The notes under the pieces: generated by a model
Seen by the model: only the letters and a program-made list of their open reading frames with translations
What the model was told of the DNA's origin: nothing
The model's database searches: none
Part shown: positions 2,965 through 45,112 of the stretch, piece after piece
Position numbering within the stretch: the first letter of the stretch is position 1
Layout: the number at the start of each line of letters is the position of its first letter
DNA from: Haloarchaeobius amylolyticus
GTDB lineage: Archaea; Halobacteriota; Halobacteria; Halobacteriales; Natrialbaceae
Length of the DNA stretch: 64,000 nucleotides
Reading direction: 5' to 3'
Assembly (NCBI RefSeq): GCF_026616195.1
Contig: NZ_JANHDH010000002.1
Span: 930,001-994,000, forward strand
Position numbers and translations under genes: made by a program

Positions 2965-4293
2965 ATGTCTACCTGGATCGGCCGCACGTTCGTCAGCGAC
3001 ACCGGATGGGACCACCTCGAGCGGCTCGTCGACGTCGGCAACCGGATGGCCGGGTCCGCGGGAGAGCGGGACGCGGCCGAGCTGACGCGCGACGCACTCG
3101 CCGAGGCCGGCGCGCGCGACGCGCACCTCGACGAGTTCGACATCCAGGGCTGGGAACGGGGCAGCAGTTCGGTCGACGCCGGCGACGAGACCTTCTCGCA
3201 ACAGCACGAGTGCATCGCGCTCCCCCGGAGTCCGGGCGCGTCGGCGAGCGGCGACCTGCTCGACCTCGGGTACGGCCTGCCCGAGGACTTCGAGGACGCC
3301 GACTGCGAGGGCAAGGTCGTCATGGTCCGGTCCGACATCCCCGACCACTACGACCGCTACATCCACCGACGCGAGAAGTACTACCACGCCGTCGAGGCGG
3401 GCGCCGCCGCCTTCGTCTACCGCAACCACGTCGAAGGGTACCTCCCGCCGACCGGCTCGGTCGGCACGCAGGAGGACCCCATCGGCGAGATTCCGGCCGT
3501 CGGCGTCGCCGCCGAGACCGGCGCACAGCTCGCCCGGCAGTACGACGGCGAGGCCGTGACCGTCTCGGTCGAGGCCACCACGGACGACGCGACCAGCCAG
3601 AACGTCCACGCCGAACTCGGCCCCGACACGGACGAGGCGGTCCTCGTGACGAGCCACGTCGACGCCCACGACATCTCGACCGGCGCGATGGACAACGGCG
3701 CCGGCACCGCCATGGTCGTCGAACTCGCGCGCCTGCTCGCCGACCGCGAGGACGAACTCGACACGCGCGTCCGGTTCGTCTGCTTCGGCGCCGAGGAGGT
3801 CGGGCTCGTCGGGGCCGAACACGAGGCCGACCAGACCGACTTCGACGACGTCAAGGCGGTCCTCAACAACGACGGCGTCGTTCAGGCCCGCGACCTCGCG
3901 TTCTACACCCACGGCTTCCCGGAGCTGTCGGACGCGCTCGACACCGTCGGCGACCGACTCGACCACCCGCTCAAGGCGGTCCCCAAACAGGGCCCACACA
4001 GCGACCACTGGCCCTTCGTCCAGTGGGGCGTCCCCGGCTACCACGTCTACGGCGAGTCCAGCGGGACCGGCCGCGGCTGGGGACACACGCACGCGGACAC
4101 GCTCGACAAACTCGAGAAGCGCGACCTGCGCGAACAGGCCATCCTGCTCGGCGACCTCGCGGTCCACCTCGCCAGCGACGAGTTCGCGGCCGCCCACCGC
4201 CGGCCGGACGAGATCGCGGCCGCGCTGGAGGACGAGGACCAGGCCGAGGGCATGCGCATCACCGGCGACTGGCCCTACGACGAGTCCGAGTGA
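2965..4293 (+). CDS. M28 family zinc metallopeptidase (aminopeptidase type)
   Basis: Co-catalytic dizinc exopeptidase of family M28, 442 residues. A PA-like insertion spans about residues 95-200 and the peptidase core about 205-420. Metal and catalytic residues are visible in order: H231 with D233 (SHVDAHD), D243 (AMDNGAG), E277/E278 (GAEEVG), D303 (LNNDG) and H376 (HTHADT). No signal peptide is seen, so it is probably cytoplasmic, trimming peptides or carrying out a related hydrolysis. The gene is divergent from E1-alpha. The start fits the first ATG, and a CCTTACG box lies about 28 bases upstream. Peptide specificity cannot be inferred. Confidence 0.9.
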   Translation: MSTWIGRTFVSDTGWDHLERLVDVGNRMAGSAGERDAAELTRDALAEAGARDAHLDEFDIQGWERGSSSVDAGDETFSQQHECIALPRSPGASASGDLLDLGYGLPEDFEDADCEGKVVMVRSDIPDHYDRYIHRREKYYHAVEAGAAAFVYRNHVEGYLPPTGSVGTQEDPIGEIPAVGVAAETGAQLARQYDGEAVTVSVEATTDDATSQNVHAELGPDTDEAVLVTSHVDAHDISTGAMDNGAGTAMVVELARLLADREDELDTRVRFVCFGAEEVGLVGAEHEADQTDFDDVKAVLNNDGVVQARDLAFYTHGFPELSDALDTVGDRLDHPLKAVPKQGPHSDHWPFVQWGVPGYHVYGESSGTGRGWGHTHADTLDKLEKRDLREQAILLGDLAVHLASDEFAAAHRRPDEIAAALEDEDQAEGMRITGDWPYDESE

Positions 4294-4365
4294 GGCGACA
4301 CGGGTCACCCCGGACCCGACGACGGAGTGGAGCCTTTTTTGTCGGCGGGGGCGCCACTACGACAC

Positions 4366-5133
4366 ATGGACAGCGTGGTGGGTGACGAGGAGTCGTCGCC
4401 GTCGGTGGGAGTCGCAGGTGAGCCGGAGGCTGCGCGCGTCGCCGCGGCCGAGTCAGCCGTCGCCGACGCCGGTGGCGTTCCGCTCGTGGACGACCCGGCG
4501 ACCCTCGTCGGCGCGTCGCCGTCGTTCGTCGTCGCGCTCGGCGAGTCGGCCCTGCTCGACCTCGTCCGCGCCGGTATCGACGTGCCCGTCCTGCCCGTCG
4601 ACGCGGGGCGGGGCGTCCGGTCGGTCCCGAACCACGCCCTCGCCGAGGCACTCCAGCACGCGCTCGGGGGCGAGGCCACGACCGAGTCCCGCCGCTGCTT
4701 CGACGTGACCATCGACGGCGAGGACGCGGTCGCCCTCTTCGACGTGACGCTCGTGACTGCAGAGCCTGCGCGCATCTCCGAGTACGCGGTCCGGTCCCGC
4801 GGCGACCTCGTCTCGCAGTTCCGCGCCGACGGCGTCGTCGTCTCGACCCCGACGGGCAGCCACGGCTACGCGAAGGCGGCCGGTGGCCCGACGCTCGAAC
4901 CCGGGACCGGAACCGGCGTCGTCGTCCCCATCGCGCCCTTCGCCATCCAGGCCGACCACTGGGTCGTCGCGGACGACGACCTCCAGCTCTCCGTCGAACG
5001 TGACGAGGGGACCGTGTCGCTGCGCGTCGACGACCGCGCACTCCGCGAGGTCGGCCCCGCGGTCACCGTCTCGCTCTCTGCGGGCCCCGAACTCACCCTC
5101 GTCTGCACGGCCGAGAGCGGTGCCCGATGGTAG
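4366..5133 (+). CDS. NAD kinase family protein with degenerate catalytic motifs
   Basis: Homologue of ATP-NAD kinase, 255 residues. The C-terminal domain is clear: [17 protein letters not shown] (about residues 159-175) matches the family's STPTGSTAY...AGGP signature, followed by PIAPFAIQADHWVV. The N-terminal glycine-rich GGDGT motif, which carries the catalytic aspartate, is replaced by VALGESAL at about residues 56-63, and the usual NE pair reads FD in VALFDVTL. It may therefore not phosphorylate NAD and could be a regulatory or divergent member; a canonical copy should exist elsewhere in the genome. The ATG at 4366 is about 26 bases after a T-rich box, which supports this start over one 13 codons upstream. 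Confidence 0.75.
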   Translation: MDSVVGDEESSPSVGVAGEPEAARVAAAESAVADAGGVPLVDDPATLVGASPSFVVALGESALLDLVRAGIDVPVLPVDAGRGVRSVPNHALAEALQHALGGEATTESRRCFDVTIDGEDAVALFDVTLVTAEPARISEYAVRSRGDLVSQFRADGVVVSTPTGSHGYAKAAGGPTLEPGTGTGVVVPIAPFAIQADHWVVADDDLQLSVERDEGTVSLRVDDRALREVGPAVTVSLSAGPELTLVCTAESGARW

Positions 5134-38828: not shown

Positions 38829-39401
38829 TTATCGCGTTCTCGTTCCGTCGGACCGTTCGACCGCACGCCTGAGCCGACGCACCTCGTCCCGGACCGCCTG
38901 CCACTGCTCGAGGCTGCCGGGGATGTCGTCGGACGACTGGTGGCGCTGTTTCTGTGAGAGCACGAGTCGCTGGACGCTCCCGGGGTCCTCGACGTTCCAG
39001 AACGTCAGCTCGGTGCCGCCGCCGGCGGCGGTGTCGACCTCGACGGTACCGTAGCCGAACAACGCCCCGAGCGCGGGCTGTTCGTACGAGGAGTTCTGGA
39101 CGCTCTCGAAGTCGGCACTGAGGACTGTCCGGGAGAGCCCGCCGGTCTTCCGGTAGCAGGCCTGGTTCGTCACGACGAACTCGGTGTTGACCACGCGGAA
39201 GTACGCCACGAGGGGCGGGAGGATGCCGAGGACGACCCCGGGCAGGATGACGAGTGGCTCCTCGATGACCCAGGCGAACCCGGCGGCGACGGCGAGGGCG
39301 ACCAGCCCGGCGACGAGCGCCGGGATGACCGACTGGATGCGGGGCTTCGCCGACCACAGCACCTCCTCGTCGTCGTCGGGCGTGAACCACTGACCGGTCA
39401 T
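38829..39401 (-). CDS. PH-domain membrane protein (bPH2 type), second of pair
   Basis: A 190-residue protein: a short acidic N-terminus (WFTPDDDEEVLWSAKPR), two membrane helices at about residues 24-67, then a bacterial PH domain of the YdbS/bPH2 type (TEFVVTNQACYRKTGGLSRT, FGYGTVEVDTAAGGGTELTF) and a basic helix. It overlaps the preceding paralogue by 4 bases. The function of such proteins is unknown; they are thought to scaffold membrane complexes. Confidence 0.82.
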   Translation of the reverse strand: MTGQWFTPDDDEEVLWSAKPRIQSVIPALVAGLVALAVAAGFAWVIEEPLVILPGVVLGILPPLVAYFRVVNTEFVVTNQACYRKTGGLSRTVLSADFESVQNSSYEQPALGALFGYGTVEVDTAAGGGTELTFWNVEDPGSVQRLVLSQKQRHQSSDDIPGSLEQWQAVRDEVRRLRRAVERSDGTRTR

Positions 39402-40075
39402 CGCTCGTCCTGCCAGTCGAACTCGTCGGACTGCCGGCCGGCCGGGTCCCCCGGTTCGTCCTCACCGGCGCCGCCGGTCGGCCCCTGCGAGGTGGGCGCG
39501 GCGCCGGCGTCGGCGGTGCCGGTGTCGGCGCCGGTGTCCTGCCCCTCGATGCCCTCGAAGGACGCGCGGATGGCGCGCAGCTCGGTCAGTATCTCGTCGA
39601 GCACCTGCTCTTTGTCCTCCTCGCCGTCGGACTGCGAGCCACGGGCCTGCTTGATGCGCCTGTTGATGAGCTCCTGGACCTGCTTGGGGTCCGAGACGGC
39701 CATGAACTGCATCTCGACGCCGGAGCCGCCGGCGGTGGAGATGTCGACGTTCCCGAAGCCGAACTGCTTGCCGAGGAAGCTCTCGCTGAAGGAGATGTTC
39801 TGGACCTTGTCGAAGTCGATCTTCTGGACGTCACGGGAGAGGATGCCGGTCTTCTTGTAGAGCCCGTCGGTCGTGACGACGTACTCCGTGTTCTCGCGCT
39901 GGAGGTACGCGCCGACGACGATGGGGATGCCGACGAGGACCAGACACAGCGGCAGCCCGATGATGAGGGCGGGGTAGATGCTCTTCTGGTCCGGGATGCC
40001 CGACCAGACGATCTCCTCGTCCTCGTCGAGCGTCAACCAGTCGTAGGTGGACTCGGTCGCGGGGGTGTCGCTCAT
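39398..40075 (-). CDS. PH-domain membrane protein (bPH2 type), first of pair
   Basis: A 225-residue paralogue of the following gene: acidic N-terminus (YDWLTLDEDEEIVWSGIPDQ), two membrane helices at about residues 32-60, and a PH domain (TEYVVTTDGLYKKTGILSRD, FGFGNVDISTAGGSGVEMQF). It ends in a long disordered Asp/Gly/Ala-rich tail not found in its partner. The 4-base overlap suggests they are made together and may form a heteromeric membrane complex. Confidence 0.83.
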   Translation of the reverse strand: MSDTPATESTYDWLTLDEDEEIVWSGIPDQKSIYPALIIGLPLCLVLVGIPIVVGAYLQRENTEYVVTTDGLYKKTGILSRDVQKIDFDKVQNISFSESFLGKQFGFGNVDISTAGGSGVEMQFMAVSDPKQVQELINRRIKQARGSQSDGEEDKEQVLDEILTELRAIRASFEGIEGQDTGADTGTADAGAAPTSQGPTGGAGEDEPGDPAGRQSDEFDWQDER

Positions 40076-40146: not shown

Positions 40147-42468
40147 TCAGTCCGCCTCGTCGGGCGCGACGCGGGCCAGCCGCATCGCGTTCCCGGTGAC
40201 GGCGGTCGTCATGCCGACGTCGCCCGCGAGTACGACCAGCCAGAGCGGGATGGCGAAGACCGGGATGAGGACCGCGAGTGCGGCCTTGACCGCGAGGCTA
40301 CCCCAGACGTTCTGGCGGATGACGCTGTTTGCCTTCCGCGAGAGGTCGACGAGGTAGGGGAGCCGGGAGAGGTCGTCGGTCAGCAGCGCGATGTCGGCAG
40401 TCTCGATGGCGGTGTCGCTGCCGGCCGCGCCCATCGCGATACCCACGTCGGCCGTGGCGAGCGCGGGCGCGTCGTTCACGCCGTCGCCGACCATCGCGAC
40501 CGTCCCCTGCTCCTTGAGTTCGGCGACCGCGTCGGTCTTGTCCTCGGGCAGCAGGTCGGCGCGGTACTCGTCGATGCCGAGTTGCTCGGCGACGGCCCGG
40601 GCCGTCCCCTCGTTGTCGCCGGTGAGCATCACGACCGAGAGGCCGCGCTCGCGGAGGGCGGCGACGGTCTCGACCGCGTCGTCCCGGATGGTGTCGCTGA
40701 CCGCGATGACGCCCTCGAGGGCGTCCTCCGTTCCCACGAGGACGACGGTCTTGCCCTCGCCCTGGAGGCGCGGGATGGTGTCCTCGACGAGGTCGAGACA
40801 GCCCTCGCGCTCGCACTGGCGGCGCATCTCGGGCCGGCTGACGCCGCCCTCAGTCGTCAGGTGGACGTGGTCGAGGTCGAACCCGAGGTCGGTGAACAGG
40901 CCGGGCTTGCCGGCGTAGTGGGGCACGTCGCCGAGGGTCGCCTTCACGCCCTCGCCGGTCAGGCTCTCGAAGCCGGACACGTCCCGGTGCTCGACCCCGT
41001 TCCGTGCGGCGTGGGCGACGATCGCGTCGCCGATGGGGTGTTCGGACCGGCTCTCCAGCCCGCGGGCACACCGGAGGACGTCCTCCTCGCTGTTCCCGTT
41101 GAGGGGCACGACGTCGGTGACGGCGAGTTCGCCGGTCGTGAGTGTCCCCGTCTTGTCGAGCGCGACGATGTCCACGTCGCCCATCGTCTCCAGCCGGTCC
41201 CCGCCTTTCACGAGGACGGCACGCTTCGCGGCGCTGGTGACCGCGGAGACGACGCTGACGGGCGTCGAGATGACGAACGCACACGGGCAGGCGATGACGA
41301 GCAGCCCGATGCCGTTGACCGCCCAGTGGACCCAGTCCGCGCCGAAGAACAGCGGCGGGACCGCGGCGACCAGTACGGCCAGCCCCGTGACCAGCGGGGT
41401 GTAGTACTGCGCGAAGCGCTCGACGAAGCGCTCGCGCTCGGTCTTGTTCGACTGGGCGTCGGTGACGAGGTCGACGATGCGCGCCAGCGTGGACTCCCCG
41501 GCGGGGCTGGTCGTCTCGACCTCGAGGTAGCCCTGTTCGTTGACGGTGCCGGCGTACACCTCGTCGCCGCGGACCTTGTCCACCGGGACGGACTCGCCCG
41601 TGATGGGTGCCTGGTTCACGGCGGATTCGCCGTCGCGGACGACCCCGTCGACCGGAATCTTCTCCCCCGGCTGGACGAGGACGACCTCGCCGACGCGGAC
41701 CTCGTCGGCCGGAATCTCGACCTGCTCGCCGTCGCGGCGGACCACCGCGGTGTCGGGCGCGAGGTCGAGCAGGTCGTCCAGCGAGCGCCGGGCGCGCTGG
41801 ACCGAGGCGCGCTCTAACAGCTCGGCGACGTTGAAGAGGAACGCCAGCGAGGCGGCCTCGATGAGGAGGTTCTCGCCGGGGACGAAGACGGTGATGCCCG
41901 TCGCGGCGAGGATGGCCGCCGTCATCAGGAAGTCGATGTCGAGGCTCAGGGTCCGGGCGGAGTAGTAGCCGTTCCGGAGGATGACCTGCCCGCCGGCGAC
42001 GACCGCGCCGAGCAACAGCACGTCCGAGAGGGCGTAGGACTGGTCGAGGACGGTCACCACGACGGGGTTGACGCGGACGAGGATGACCAGCAGGGCGAGC
42101 GCGACGAACGCGCCGGAGGCGATGGTCTTCAGCCCGCGGGCACTCGTCCAGACGGCCTCGTCACCGTCCTCGTCGTCGTCGCGGACCGCGTAGCCCGCGC
42201 CCTCGACGGCCGCCACGACCGTCTCGCGGTCGGTCGCCTCGGGGTCGTAGCCGACGACGAGGGTCCCGGTCGTCGGCCGCGGGTCGACGGCGAGGACGCC
42301 GGAGAGGCCGGAGACGGCCCCCTCGACCTTGCTCGCACACGACGGACAGTCCATGTCCGGCACGTCGAGCCGCAGGGTCGCCGGCGCGTCCGCGACGCTT
42401 TCGGCCCCGGTGCCGGCCGTCCCGGCGTCGTCGCAGCCGCAGGACTCGGTCGTGCAATCGTCGCTCAT
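40147..42468 (-). CDS. zntA: P1B-type heavy-metal exporting ATPase (Zn/Cd/Pb class)
   Basis: Metal-efflux ATPase of 773 residues. The N-terminus carries a Cys-rich start (DDCTTESCGCDD) and one heavy-metal-associated domain with MDCPSCASKVEG (C41, C44). Eight membrane helices follow, with the translocation motif ACPCAFVISTPVS typical of the Zn/Cd/Pb (P1B-2) group, then the phosphorylation site DKTGTLTTGEL, the nucleotide-domain HP in SEHPIGDAIVAH, and GDGVNDAPALATADVGIAMG. A TATA-like box lies about 25 bases upstream and a 7-7 palindrome further up, likely a metal-responsive operator. No metalloregulator gene is adjacent. Confidence 0.94.
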   Translation of the reverse strand: MSDDCTTESCGCDDAGTAGTGAESVADAPATLRLDVPDMDCPSCASKVEGAVSGLSGVLAVDPRPTTGTLVVGYDPEATDRETVVAAVEGAGYAVRDDDEDGDEAVWTSARGLKTIASGAFVALALLVILVRVNPVVVTVLDQSYALSDVLLLGAVVAGGQVILRNGYYSARTLSLDIDFLMTAAILAATGITVFVPGENLLIEAASLAFLFNVAELLERASVQRARRSLDDLLDLAPDTAVVRRDGEQVEIPADEVRVGEVVLVQPGEKIPVDGVVRDGESAVNQAPITGESVPVDKVRGDEVYAGTVNEQGYLEVETTSPAGESTLARIVDLVTDAQSNKTERERFVERFAQYYTPLVTGLAVLVAAVPPLFFGADWVHWAVNGIGLLVIACPCAFVISTPVSVVSAVTSAAKRAVLVKGGDRLETMGDVDIVALDKTGTLTTGELAVTDVVPLNGNSEEDVLRCARGLESRSEHPIGDAIVAHAARNGVEHRDVSGFESLTGEGVKATLGDVPHYAGKPGLFTDLGFDLDHVHLTTEGGVSRPEMRRQCEREGCLDLVEDTIPRLQGEGKTVVLVGTEDALEGVIAVSDTIRDDAVETVAALRERGLSVVMLTGDNEGTARAVAEQLGIDEYRADLLPEDKTDAVAELKEQGTVAMVGDGVNDAPALATADVGIAMGAAGSDTAIETADIALLTDDLSRLPYLVDLSRKANSVIRQNVWGSLAVKAALAVLIPVFAIPLWLVVLAGDVGMTTAVTGNAMRLARVAPDEAD

Positions 42469-42556: not shown

Positions 42557-42657
42557 GTTAGTAGCACTGTGGCGAGGTGGGGGCCTGCGGTGGGCGAAAC
42601 TCGAACGTCGGAGACCGCCCGACGTGGAGCAGGCGCGTTCGCCGTGGACTGAAAACT

Positions 42658-42663
42658 CATATA
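42658..42663 (+). promoter_or_regulatory. TATA-like box for the zinc-repeat/J-domain gene
   Basis: CATATA, 24 bases before the ATG at 42688, standard leaderless spacing. Confidence 0.5.
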
Positions 42664-42687
42664 CCATGAAACCCAACGCTTCGAGCG

Positions 42688-43677
42688 ATGGCCGTGGCCG
42701 ACAGGCAATCTTGCGACGGATGTGACCGACAGTTCGCCGTCGAGCGACTGTCGACCGTCACGATGCCGGGGGGGTCACAGTCGGTCTGCTGCCCGGACTG
42801 CCGGCGGTTCGCCGAGTCCGCGCGGTCGAAGGCCGAACTCGACCGGGACGAACACGAGTGCGACGGCTGCTCGCGGACGTACCCGCTCTCGGAGCTCTCG
42901 GTCGTCGACATGCCCGGTGGCTCGCAGTCGGTCTGCTGTCCGGAGTGTCGGACCTACGCCGAGTCGGTCGGGACGACCGCCGAACTCGGGCAGCGCCGCC
43001 GGGAGTGCGACGGCTGTTCGAGGGAGTTCGCGCTCGACAACCTCGCCGTCGTCGACATGCCGGGTGGGACCCAGTCGATCTGCTGTCCCGAGTGCAAGTG
43101 GTACGCGGAGTCGGTCAGCACCACGGCGGAACTCGGCGACCGACAGCGCGAGTGCGACGGGTGCACCACGACGTTCCCCGTCTCCGAACTCGAAGAGATC
43201 GTGCTCTCGGACGGGACGAGCGTCCTCTGCTGTCCGACCTGCCGGGAGCACGCGCCCGAGCCGACAGCGACCGACGAGGTCGACGACGAGCAGCGCAAGG
43301 ACGCAGAGCGCGAGACGGCGTCGGAACTCGCCGAGAAGGACCCCTCGAAGGCGATCCAGACCCGGAACCTCTGCACGCAGTGCAAGGAGTGGTGCTCGGT
43401 CGAACTCTACCCCGCCGAGATCAACGACAGCCGGACCGAGAACCTCTGTCCCGACTGTCTCGAGATAGCCCGGAGCCGCGGCATCGTCACCGAGGTCGGC
43501 ATGCGGCGTGCCGATGCCTACGACGCACTCGGCATCGAGCCGGTCGACGACGCCGGCGAACTCCGTGACGCCTACATCGACCGGGTCAAGGACGTCCACC
43601 CCGACCGCGCCGGCGGGAGCCGCGAGGCGTTCAAGCGGGTCCAGCGGGCGTACGAACGCCTCGAATCCGAGTTCTAG
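42688..43677 (+). CDS. Five-repeat zinc-binding protein with C-terminal J domain
   Basis: A 329-residue protein that I cannot assign to a named family. It has five cysteine modules of the form C-x2-C ... C(C)-x2-C at residues 9-38, 58-87, 107-136, 157-185 and 229-257. The first four repeat every 49 residues with near-identical cores (VDMPGGSQSVCCPEC). An acidic, charged linker (190-222) precedes the fifth, and a J domain closes the protein (about 275-329) with the HPD tripeptide at 304-306 (DVHPDRAGG). J domains stimulate Hsp70/DnaK, so the array probably selects a client. It converges tail to tail with a TIR/zinc-ribbon gene, overlapping by 4 bases. Confidence 0.88.
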   Translation: MAVADRQSCDGCDRQFAVERLSTVTMPGGSQSVCCPDCRRFAESARSKAELDRDEHECDGCSRTYPLSELSVVDMPGGSQSVCCPECRTYAESVGTTAELGQRRRECDGCSREFALDNLAVVDMPGGTQSICCPECKWYAESVSTTAELGDRQRECDGCTTTFPVSELEEIVLSDGTSVLCCPTCREHAPEPTATDEVDDEQRKDAERETASELAEKDPSKAIQTRNLCTQCKEWCSVELYPAEINDSRTENLCPDCLEIARSRGIVTEVGMRRADAYDALGIEPVDDAGELRDAYIDRVKDVHPDRAGGSREAFKRVQRAYERLESEF

Positions 43678-44297
43678 ACCTGCTCCTGCTCGGCGGGGTC
43701 CTCCCGGCGGACGTACCCGAGCGTCCCCGGGTTGAAGAGGTAGCGCGACCCGCACTCGCCGCAGGTCGCCACGAGCGGCTGGTTGTGCTCGTACTGCTGC
43801 CAGAGGTCCTTCTGTTGCTGTTCGACGTCGAGCACCACGCGGTGGCCACAGCCCTCGAAGTTGCAGGGGAACTCCAGGTACCAGTTCGGGGTCGAGAGCG
43901 TCCCGAGCGGGGCGATTTCCGCCCGGAGCCGGCAGAGCAGGTTGAACACGGTGACCGGAACCTCCTCGCGGTCGAGCTGGACGCCCTCGACGTTCGCGAG
44001 GTAGCCCGGCCGGTCGACGGGCGGTTCGTAGAGCGGGAGCACCGGGATACCGCGGGCCGTGGCGAAGCCGATCTCCTGGTTGACCCAGTGGTCGGCGACG
44101 CCCTCGGCGGTGAGCACGGCGACGACCACGTCGGCGTTCGCGAGTCGCCCCTTGAGGTCGCTCCGCGTCCGGCCGGCCTCGAGTTCCTCCATGGCGAGGT
44201 GGACCCCGACCGGGAGGTTCCGGACCGTCCCGAACAGGTCCTGGGCCAGGTCGAGGTCTTCGCTCGCGTGCGTGACGAAGACCTGCGCGTCGGTCAT
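43674..44297 (-). CDS. TIR-domain protein with C-terminal zinc ribbon
   Basis: A 207-residue soluble protein. Residues 4-95 form a TIR domain: QVFVTHASEDLDLAQDLF, the loop MEELEAGRTRSDLKGRL, NADVVVAVLTAEGVADHW and VNQEIGFATARGIPVLPLY. E75 in WVNQE occupies the place of the catalytic glutamate of NAD-cleaving TIR domains. A C-terminal zinc-ribbon-like unit follows, with C145, C150, C179 and C182. TIR proteins act in NAD depletion or nucleotide signalling, including anti-phage defence; which applies is unknown. A GTTTTGTAC box is about 25 bases upstream. It shares its 3' end with the zinc-repeat/J-domain gene. Confidence 0.82.
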   Translation of the reverse strand: MTDAQVFVTHASEDLDLAQDLFGTVRNLPVGVHLAMEELEAGRTRSDLKGRLANADVVVAVLTAEGVADHWVNQEIGFATARGIPVLPLYEPPVDRPGYLANVEGVQLDREEVPVTVFNLLCRLRAEIAPLGTLSTPNWYLEFPCNFEGCGHRVVLDVEQQQKDLWQQYEHNQPLVATCGECGSRYLFNPGTLGYVRREDPAEQEQV

Positions 44298-44467: not shown

Positions 44468-45112
44468 TTACAGCGGCGAGACGAGGTCCTCGAGCGCGGC
44501 GCGCGGGTCGTCGGCCTTGGCGACACCGGAGGCGAGGAGCACGCCGGTCGACCCGAGTTCGCCCGCGGCCTCGAGGTCGTCGCCGGTCGAGATGCCGGCG
44601 CCACAGAGTACGTCGACGCTCTCGTCGACGGCCTTGGCAGCCTCGACCGCGCCGGTGACGACGTCCGGGTCGGCCTGGCTGACGGGCGTGCCGGTGCCGA
44701 TGAGTTCCGGCGGCTCGACCGCGACCGAGTCCGGGCCGAGGGCGGCGGCCGCGCCGATCTGGCGCGGGTTGTTCGCGCAGACGATGGTCTCGAGGTCGGC
44801 GCGCTCGGCGGCGCGCAGCGAGCTATCGATGTCCGCGAGTTTCAGCCGGTTCTCGGAGTGGTTCAGGAGCGTGCCGACCGCGCCGGCGTCGGCGGCCGCC
44901 TCCGCCAGCGTGCTCCCGGTGTGGCTGCCGTGCTCGACCGGGCTGACGTGCTGGGCCCAGGTCTCGACGCCCGTCTCGGCCACGCGCTGCAGGTGCGCGG
45001 CCTGCGGGGCCACGGCGATACGCACGCCAGAGTCGTCGCTCACGTTCGCTGCCGCCGTCGCGACCCCGACCGGGTCGCACGGGTACGCCTTCAGGTTGAC
45101 GAGTACGAACAC
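44468..45112 (-). CDS. tpiA: Triosephosphate isomerase (archaeal type)
   Basis: Interconverts dihydroxyacetone phosphate and glyceraldehyde 3-phosphate. 214 residues, the short archaeal form. Active-site residues: N6 and K8 (VNLKAY), the electrophilic His in LLNHSENRL, and the catalytic Glu in [12 protein letters not shown]; the phosphate-binding loop is [17 protein letters not shown]. It is a stand-alone gene; a CTATTTTAC box lies about 25-30 bases upstream of the ATG. It works with the aldolase and bisphosphatase encoded 10 kb away. Confidence 0.95.

Follow-up and report, generated by a model that had tools for sequence, protein, structure and literature searches.

Prokaryotic TIR enzymes have mostly been studied as defence effectors. 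The TIR protein described here shares with the NAD+ hydrolases and cyclases AbTIR, BtTir, TcpB/BtpA and SARM1 the TIR fold and a W-x3-E motif that aligns with that of AbTIR, and differs from them in its C-terminal four-cysteine ribbon, its length of about 200 aa and its occurrence as a single copy in a block of housekeeping genes. NADase activity has been measured for the archaeal TIR proteins TcpA and TcpO, of which TcpA acts on both NAD and NAD-RNA, releasing nicotinamide from the latter, and TcpO only on NAD (PMC10937652); the TcpA and TcpO constructs comprise 327 and 341 aa versus 207 aa for our protein. Part of its TIR domain matches ThsB_TIR and the PADLOC models of the Thoeris protein ThsB with weak E-values, but unlike Thoeris components it is vertically inherited, not carried on an island, and lacks an adjoining ThsA-type partner. 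The protein encoded next to it has a J domain with an HPD motif in common with DnaJ and class C J-domain proteins, but departs from the DnaJ layout in that this domain is C-terminal and follows five putative zinc modules. In plants, RAR1, a co-chaperone built of tandem zinc modules, is tied to immune receptors that include TIR proteins. The control of immune receptors such as TIR-NLRs by RAR1-SGT1-HSP90 (PMC3475666) offers an analogy, in which we found no homology: the plant system uses HSP90, whereas the haloarchaeal pair has an Hsp70/J domain.

Both genes lie in a stretch of 64,000 nucleotides from Haloarchaeobius amylolyticus, the whole of which is called here the window. The relevant features are as follows:

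40147..42468, minus strand: heavy-metal P-type ATPase, transcribed divergently from J (context; same divergent order in Halostella)
42650..42665, plus strand: promoter element (BRE/TATA type) of the J gene (AGAACTAATATA-type consensus, positions -36 to -25, 71 loci)
42688..43677, plus strand: gene of the zinc-repeat J-domain protein (P0001, 329 aa; PF00226 above cut-off)
42712..42801, plus strand: cysteine module 1, aa 9-38, expansion copy (sequence; missing in most homologues)
42859..42948, plus strand: cysteine module 2, aa 58-87, expansion copy (PF12156 match at aa 57-94)
43006..43095, plus strand: cysteine module 3, aa 107-136, conserved (76 homologues)
43153..43242, plus strand: cysteine module 4, aa 156-185, conserved (76 homologues)
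43372..43458, plus strand: cysteine module 5, aa 229-257, conserved in homologues
43513..43665, plus strand: J domain, aa 276-326, with HPD at 43597-43605 (PF00226)
43674..43677, no strand: CTAG, interlocked stop codons of both genes (sequence)
43674..44297, minus strand: gene of the TIR-zinc ribbon protein (P0002, 207 aa; PF13676 above cut-off)
43752..43865, minus strand: putative zinc ribbon, C145, C150, C179 and C182 (conserved in 89 proteins)
43971..44282, minus strand: TIR domain, aa 6-109, with W71 at 44085-44087 and E75 at 44073-44075 (conservation; AbTIR alignment)
44468..45112, minus strand: tpiA, same strand as the TIR gene and upstream of it (context; cluster c1, near the TIR gene in most family loci)

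The initial annotation had described a tail-to-tail pair overlapping in the CTAG, with five cysteine modules joined to a J domain in one protein and a TIR domain joined to a zinc ribbon in the other, and all of this agrees with the sequence and the domain matches. The public annotation of the homologues from Natrinema thermotolerans goes no further than "J domain-containing protein" and "TIR domain-containing protein", and in the literature we found nothing on TIR together with DnaJ in haloarchaea. We propose, with a probability of roughly 40%, that the pair comprises a vertically inherited archaeal TIR-ribbon enzyme, which would cleave NAD, and a dedicated DnaK co-chaperone that accompanies it in haloarchaea.

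In the J-domain protein, modules 1-4 follow the pattern C-x2-C...C-C-P-x-C, mostly in the form C-D-G-C...M-P-G-G...C-C-P-x-C, while module 5 differs (C-x2-C...C-P-x-C). The match of the J domain to PF00226 (E 7e-9) scores 36.1 versus a cut-off of 27.8 bits. In the 76 homologous J proteins H304 and D306 of the HPD motif (aa 304-306) are conserved in 100% and P305 in 99%, and the same comparison gives 100% for C107, C110, C133 and C136 (97% for C132) in module 3, 100% for C156, C159, C182 and C185 in module 4, and 99% for C229, C232, C254 and C257 in module 5; such conservation, at 97-100%, is not due to chance. In most homologues two modules precede the fifth, while extra ones occur also in Halorubellus and in the window's nearest relative; modules 1 and 2 are an expansion. 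The cysteine modules are predicted to bind zinc; they match PF12156, a domain of cation ATPases with a putative metal-binding role. The structure model of the J domain agrees with solved J domains, and a fold search with the protein returned J domains and weak zinc-finger matches, and nothing else. Its score against the bacterial DnaJ equivalog TIGR02349 is 22.6 versus the 377.2 bits required, and the host genome contains six further J-domain matches. The spacing of the BRE/TATA-type element is compatible with a leaderless mRNA; we also considered this promoter as a special operator and rejected the idea, as the element is ordinary in kind and strength and those of control genes are equally strong or stronger.

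The TIR domain matches PF13676 (TIR_2) with an E-value of 1e-9 (39.3 versus a cut-off of 28 bits). W71, E75, H10 and R45, as well as the ribbon cysteines C145, C150, C179 and C182, are invariant in 89 haloarchaeal TIR proteins, and for W71, E75 and the cysteines chance can be dismissed as the cause. In the profile alignment W71 and E75 coincide with the W-x3-E of AbTIR, a protein deposited as an NAD(+) hydrolase, and the predicted structure (pLDDT 84.8) finds as its best Foldseek matches the TIR domains of SARM1, BtTir and AbTir, with a probability of 1.00. Invariance, alignment and fold match together show that the active site is conserved, and the catalytic glutamate, which had seemed intact in the initial annotation, indeed appears to be so, E75 being aligned with the catalytic Glu of AbTIR. 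Mutation of AbTir W204, the counterpart of W71, lowers the activity and yields some non-cyclic ADPR-RNA (PMC10937652). The protein probably cleaves NAD, and its four-cysteine ribbon is predicted to bind zinc. The same genome encodes a second TIR_2 domain (G000:C3:257845-258201, in a 376-aa frame), whose PF13676 match is better than that of the window protein.

A search with a profile of the TIR-ribbon family revealed 31 genomes from two further families of the phylum (f19 and f33), which we take to be methanogens, that encode full-length relatives some 190 aa long, and a named scan added relatives in metagenome-assembled genomes (MAGs) of Nitrososphaeria, located beside CBS-domain proteins. 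The N-x-E-[IVL]-G core that includes E75 and the four cysteines are retained in all aligned methanogen and Nitrososphaeria rows; W71 is missing in the methanogen-type ones. No J gene was found within about 1.5 kb on each side in f19 and f33, or within 4 kb in Nitrososphaeria. This wide archaeal spread without an adjoining J gene indicates that the TIR-ribbon proteins are an old archaeal family, to which haloarchaea add the zinc-repeat J protein as a companion; this archaeal family as such is the finding of wider scope. The domain might alternatively be a scaffold or a nucleotide binder (e.g. a regulator acting with the ribbon) that does not cleave NAD: it weakly resembles folds of the nucleoside deoxyribosyltransferase and ThsB types, W71 is dispensed with in the methanogen relatives, and a toxic NADase would not usually be passed on vertically as a single copy next to housekeeping genes. 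The retention of E75 in the 89 haloarchaeal proteins and in every aligned row from other archaea, and of W71 throughout the haloarchaea, argues against this alternative, which we regard as rather unlikely. As to the surroundings of these genes, in Nitrososphaeria the gene of the TIR-ribbon protein (192-194 aa) is flanked by those of CBS-domain proteins on one side and of a CBS-linked membrane protease on the other, in an order identical in three MAGs (L208, L209 and L211, at about 3860-4580), and the methanogen-type genes (L279-L296) have a variable context.

The distribution of both genes was surveyed in 392 genomes of the order (Halobacteriales, as judged from named relatives). The TIR protein, counted by strong scores with one further match (E 7e-4) left out, is present in 90 of them, i.e. 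in 83 of the 96 genomes of the window's family, in five of genus g31 and in two of genus g47. The zinc-repeat J protein, for which the zinc modules were searched without the J domain and one match at 4e-7 in a 1029-aa frame was left out, is present with strong scores in 78/392, of which 71 belong to the window's family and seven do not. According to a named scan, the family includes Natrinema, Natrialba, Halopiger, Haloterrigena, Halorubellus and Haloarchaeobius, and the genera outside it that possess the pair are Halostella and Salinarchaeum; the seven outside genomes, from two genera, are identical for the two proteins. Altogether both genes occur in 75 genomes, TIR only in 15, J only in three and neither in 299. 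The pair is no accident of a single genome: it is co-distributed and conserved across haloarchaea. The co-occurrence, which the initial annotation had proposed to check, is strong but lopsided, J being rare without TIR and TIR frequent without J. One of the three exceptions (G380) was set aside as a true case of J without TIR, because its J gene is located at the end of a contig and the genome lacks tpiA too, so that the TIR gene may be missing from the assembly.

In 68 of the 75 genomes with both genes these are side by side, convergent in 68/68, their 3' ends ranging from an overlap of about 30 bp to a gap of 178 bp; in the other seven (five of genus g19 and both of the Salinarchaeum type) they are apart. 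The neighbours, whose names we assigned by reading the sequences, are housekeeping genes and largely syntenic. On the TIR side they comprise a hisC-like aminotransferase, a CDP-alcohol phosphatidyltransferase, an MBF1-like HTH protein and tpiA. On the J side they are small membrane proteins, or the heavy-metal ATPase with a CorA-like transporter, and vary among Haloarchaeobius, Halorubellus, Halostella and the rest, with the TIR/J pair constant. Because the flanking housekeeping genes are largely syntenic, shared synteny accounts for part of the adjacency. This leads to a serious rival reading, in which TIR and J do not cooperate and merely belong to an old conserved chromosomal block, the J protein having other clients and the TIR-ribbon protein a job of its own. 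It draws on the order hisC - CDP-alcohol transferase - MBF1-like - tpiA - TIR - J, syntenic across the family, on the promoter-like element that each of the two genes has for itself, on the persistence of TIR without J and on the TIR homologues of other archaea with no J gene nearby. Less readily explained in this way are the scarcity of J without TIR (just 3/78 genomes, including the one at a contig end), the coincidence of both genes in the same seven genomes outside the family, two of which have them unlinked, and the survival of both after their separation in one genus of Natrialbaceae. We consider the block explanation a real possibility that falls short of even odds.

Joint absence of the two genes is seen at syntenic sites. 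In nine TIR-less genomes of the family whose tpiA is in its normal position (genera g3 and g16, and G243) both are gone from between tpiA and a membrane protein gene (c6), the remaining order being kept, and both are gone also from G063, where the flank on the J side is different. Such co-loss is weak evidence, since one deletion can take adjacent genes. A tree built from four housekeeping proteins of the neighbourhood gave seven state changes for TIR, ten for J and 12 for the joint state; J was lost alone about five times (in Natrialba, in G220, in part of Natrinema and in two small clades) and TIR alone once (in genus g9), numbers to be read with the provision that the tree alone cannot separate gain from loss. 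TIR proteins in J-less genomes keep the catalytic residues. A search of TIR-only genomes for J remnants yielded no recognisable cysteine modules, the matches being mostly on N-terminal extensions of over-long ORFs. A sign test on independent pairs pointed in the same direction and was not significant (median p 0.125). Rate coevolution (mirror tree) was discarded as evidence: the partial correlation for TIR-J is 0.39, versus 0.52 for TIR-CDP-alcohol transferase and 0.47 for the control of tpiA with the CDP-alcohol transferase, and a signal no stronger than that of control neighbours is uninformative. The paired system suggested in the initial annotation is accordingly upheld in part: TIR accompanies J in 75/78 genomes, all adjacent pairs are convergent and absences are shared, but TIR is kept without J in Natrialba and others, and the family in methanogens and Nitrososphaeria does without an adjoining J. 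A joint function, such as the client sensing and NAD-directed response suggested there, is possible.

Enrichment near defence genes, likewise proposed as a check, was not borne out in the window, where neighbours match no defence model; as the conserved flanking genes (tpiA, hisC, MBF1-like) are housekeeping ones, there is no defence island. An antiviral or abortive-infection module, with the J protein guarding a TIR effector, would find some backing in the ThsB-like PADLOC matches, weak for the window protein (E 1.5e-5) and reaching 1e-5 or better with PDLC00436 in 18 of 35 relatives, and in the Hsp70/DnaJ parts known from some conflict systems (PMC7159879). We find it quite improbable, given that neither the ThsA effector, a requirement of Thoeris, nor another defence gene adjoins the pair, that TIR is present in as many as 83/96 family genomes and that the genes are essentially immobile. 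A mobile defence module was rejected on the latter ground: among 72,556 plasmid records a single one matched, phage records and viral contigs gave no match, and the neighbours are housekeeping genes.

Under the reading we prefer, a TIR enzyme with a dedicated co-chaperone, the TIR-ribbon protein would be vertically inherited and normally single-copy, and E75 would serve as the catalytic residue in cleaving nicotinamide from NAD+ or an NAD-bearing molecule. The ribbon might bind the substrate, possibly RNA, or a partner, and either free NAD or NAD-capped RNA could be the target of the enzyme. J proteins with an HPD motif deliver clients to DnaK. In Natrialbaceae and their allies the enzyme would work with its own Hsp70 co-chaperone, whose zinc modules might bind the TIR protein or a complex containing its ribbon, and whose HPD would recruit DnaK so that the enzyme is kept inactive or its assemblies are taken apart. 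The physical interaction and the direction of control are presumed here; the near confinement of J to genomes with TIR, which itself manages without J, is consistent with a regulator that joined an enzyme of greater age. The NAD-RNAs of Haloferax volcanii, many of them on leaderless mRNAs (PMC10663502), and the de-capping of such RNAs by an archaeal TIR protein (PMC10937652) provide relevant background. The fuller version of the proposal, in which a core archaeal TIR enzyme acts via its ribbon on NAD or NAD-capped RNA and is restrained by the zinc-module Hsp70 co-chaperone, independently of plant RAR1/HSP90, is speculative and in our estimate unlikely; if true, it would mean that chaperone-controlled TIR signalling arose in archaea separately from that of plants. 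That a family whose catalytic glutamate is invariant passes vertically next to tpiA in haloarchaea, and occurs in methanogens and Nitrososphaeria too, raises the question of a role for a TIR enzyme in ordinary archaeal life. Through its J partner in haloarchaea, control of such an enzyme, if it exists, becomes directly accessible to genetics.

The J protein might instead participate in metal homeostasis, its modules sensing or carrying zinc in cooperation with the heavy-metal ATPase that is encoded divergently. That arrangement exists in the window, in its nearest relative and in Halostella, and the resemblance of the modules to PF12156 would suit it, but an adjoining ATPase is lacking for the majority of the family's J genes, and we hold the explanation to be improbable.

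Several further features of the neighbourhood were recorded. In roughly half of the loci, tpiA and the TIR gene are separated by a gene of cluster c9, whose product is a conserved hypothetical protein some 148 aa long (e.g. L102:8535-8981). In one genus of Natrialbaceae (L151, L152 and L155) the J gene has been relocated away from TIR to a position beside a succinyl-CoA ligase pair, accompanied by the neighbour c6 in two of the three loci read. The P-type ATPase of the window (40147-42468) has a CPC motif and a cysteine-rich start, and its order, found also in Halostella, may be ancestral. Adjoining it at 38829-40075 are two overlapping genes whose products, both small membrane proteins, resemble one another and look PH-like by eye, and this gene pair is kept in several Haloarchaeobius genomes.
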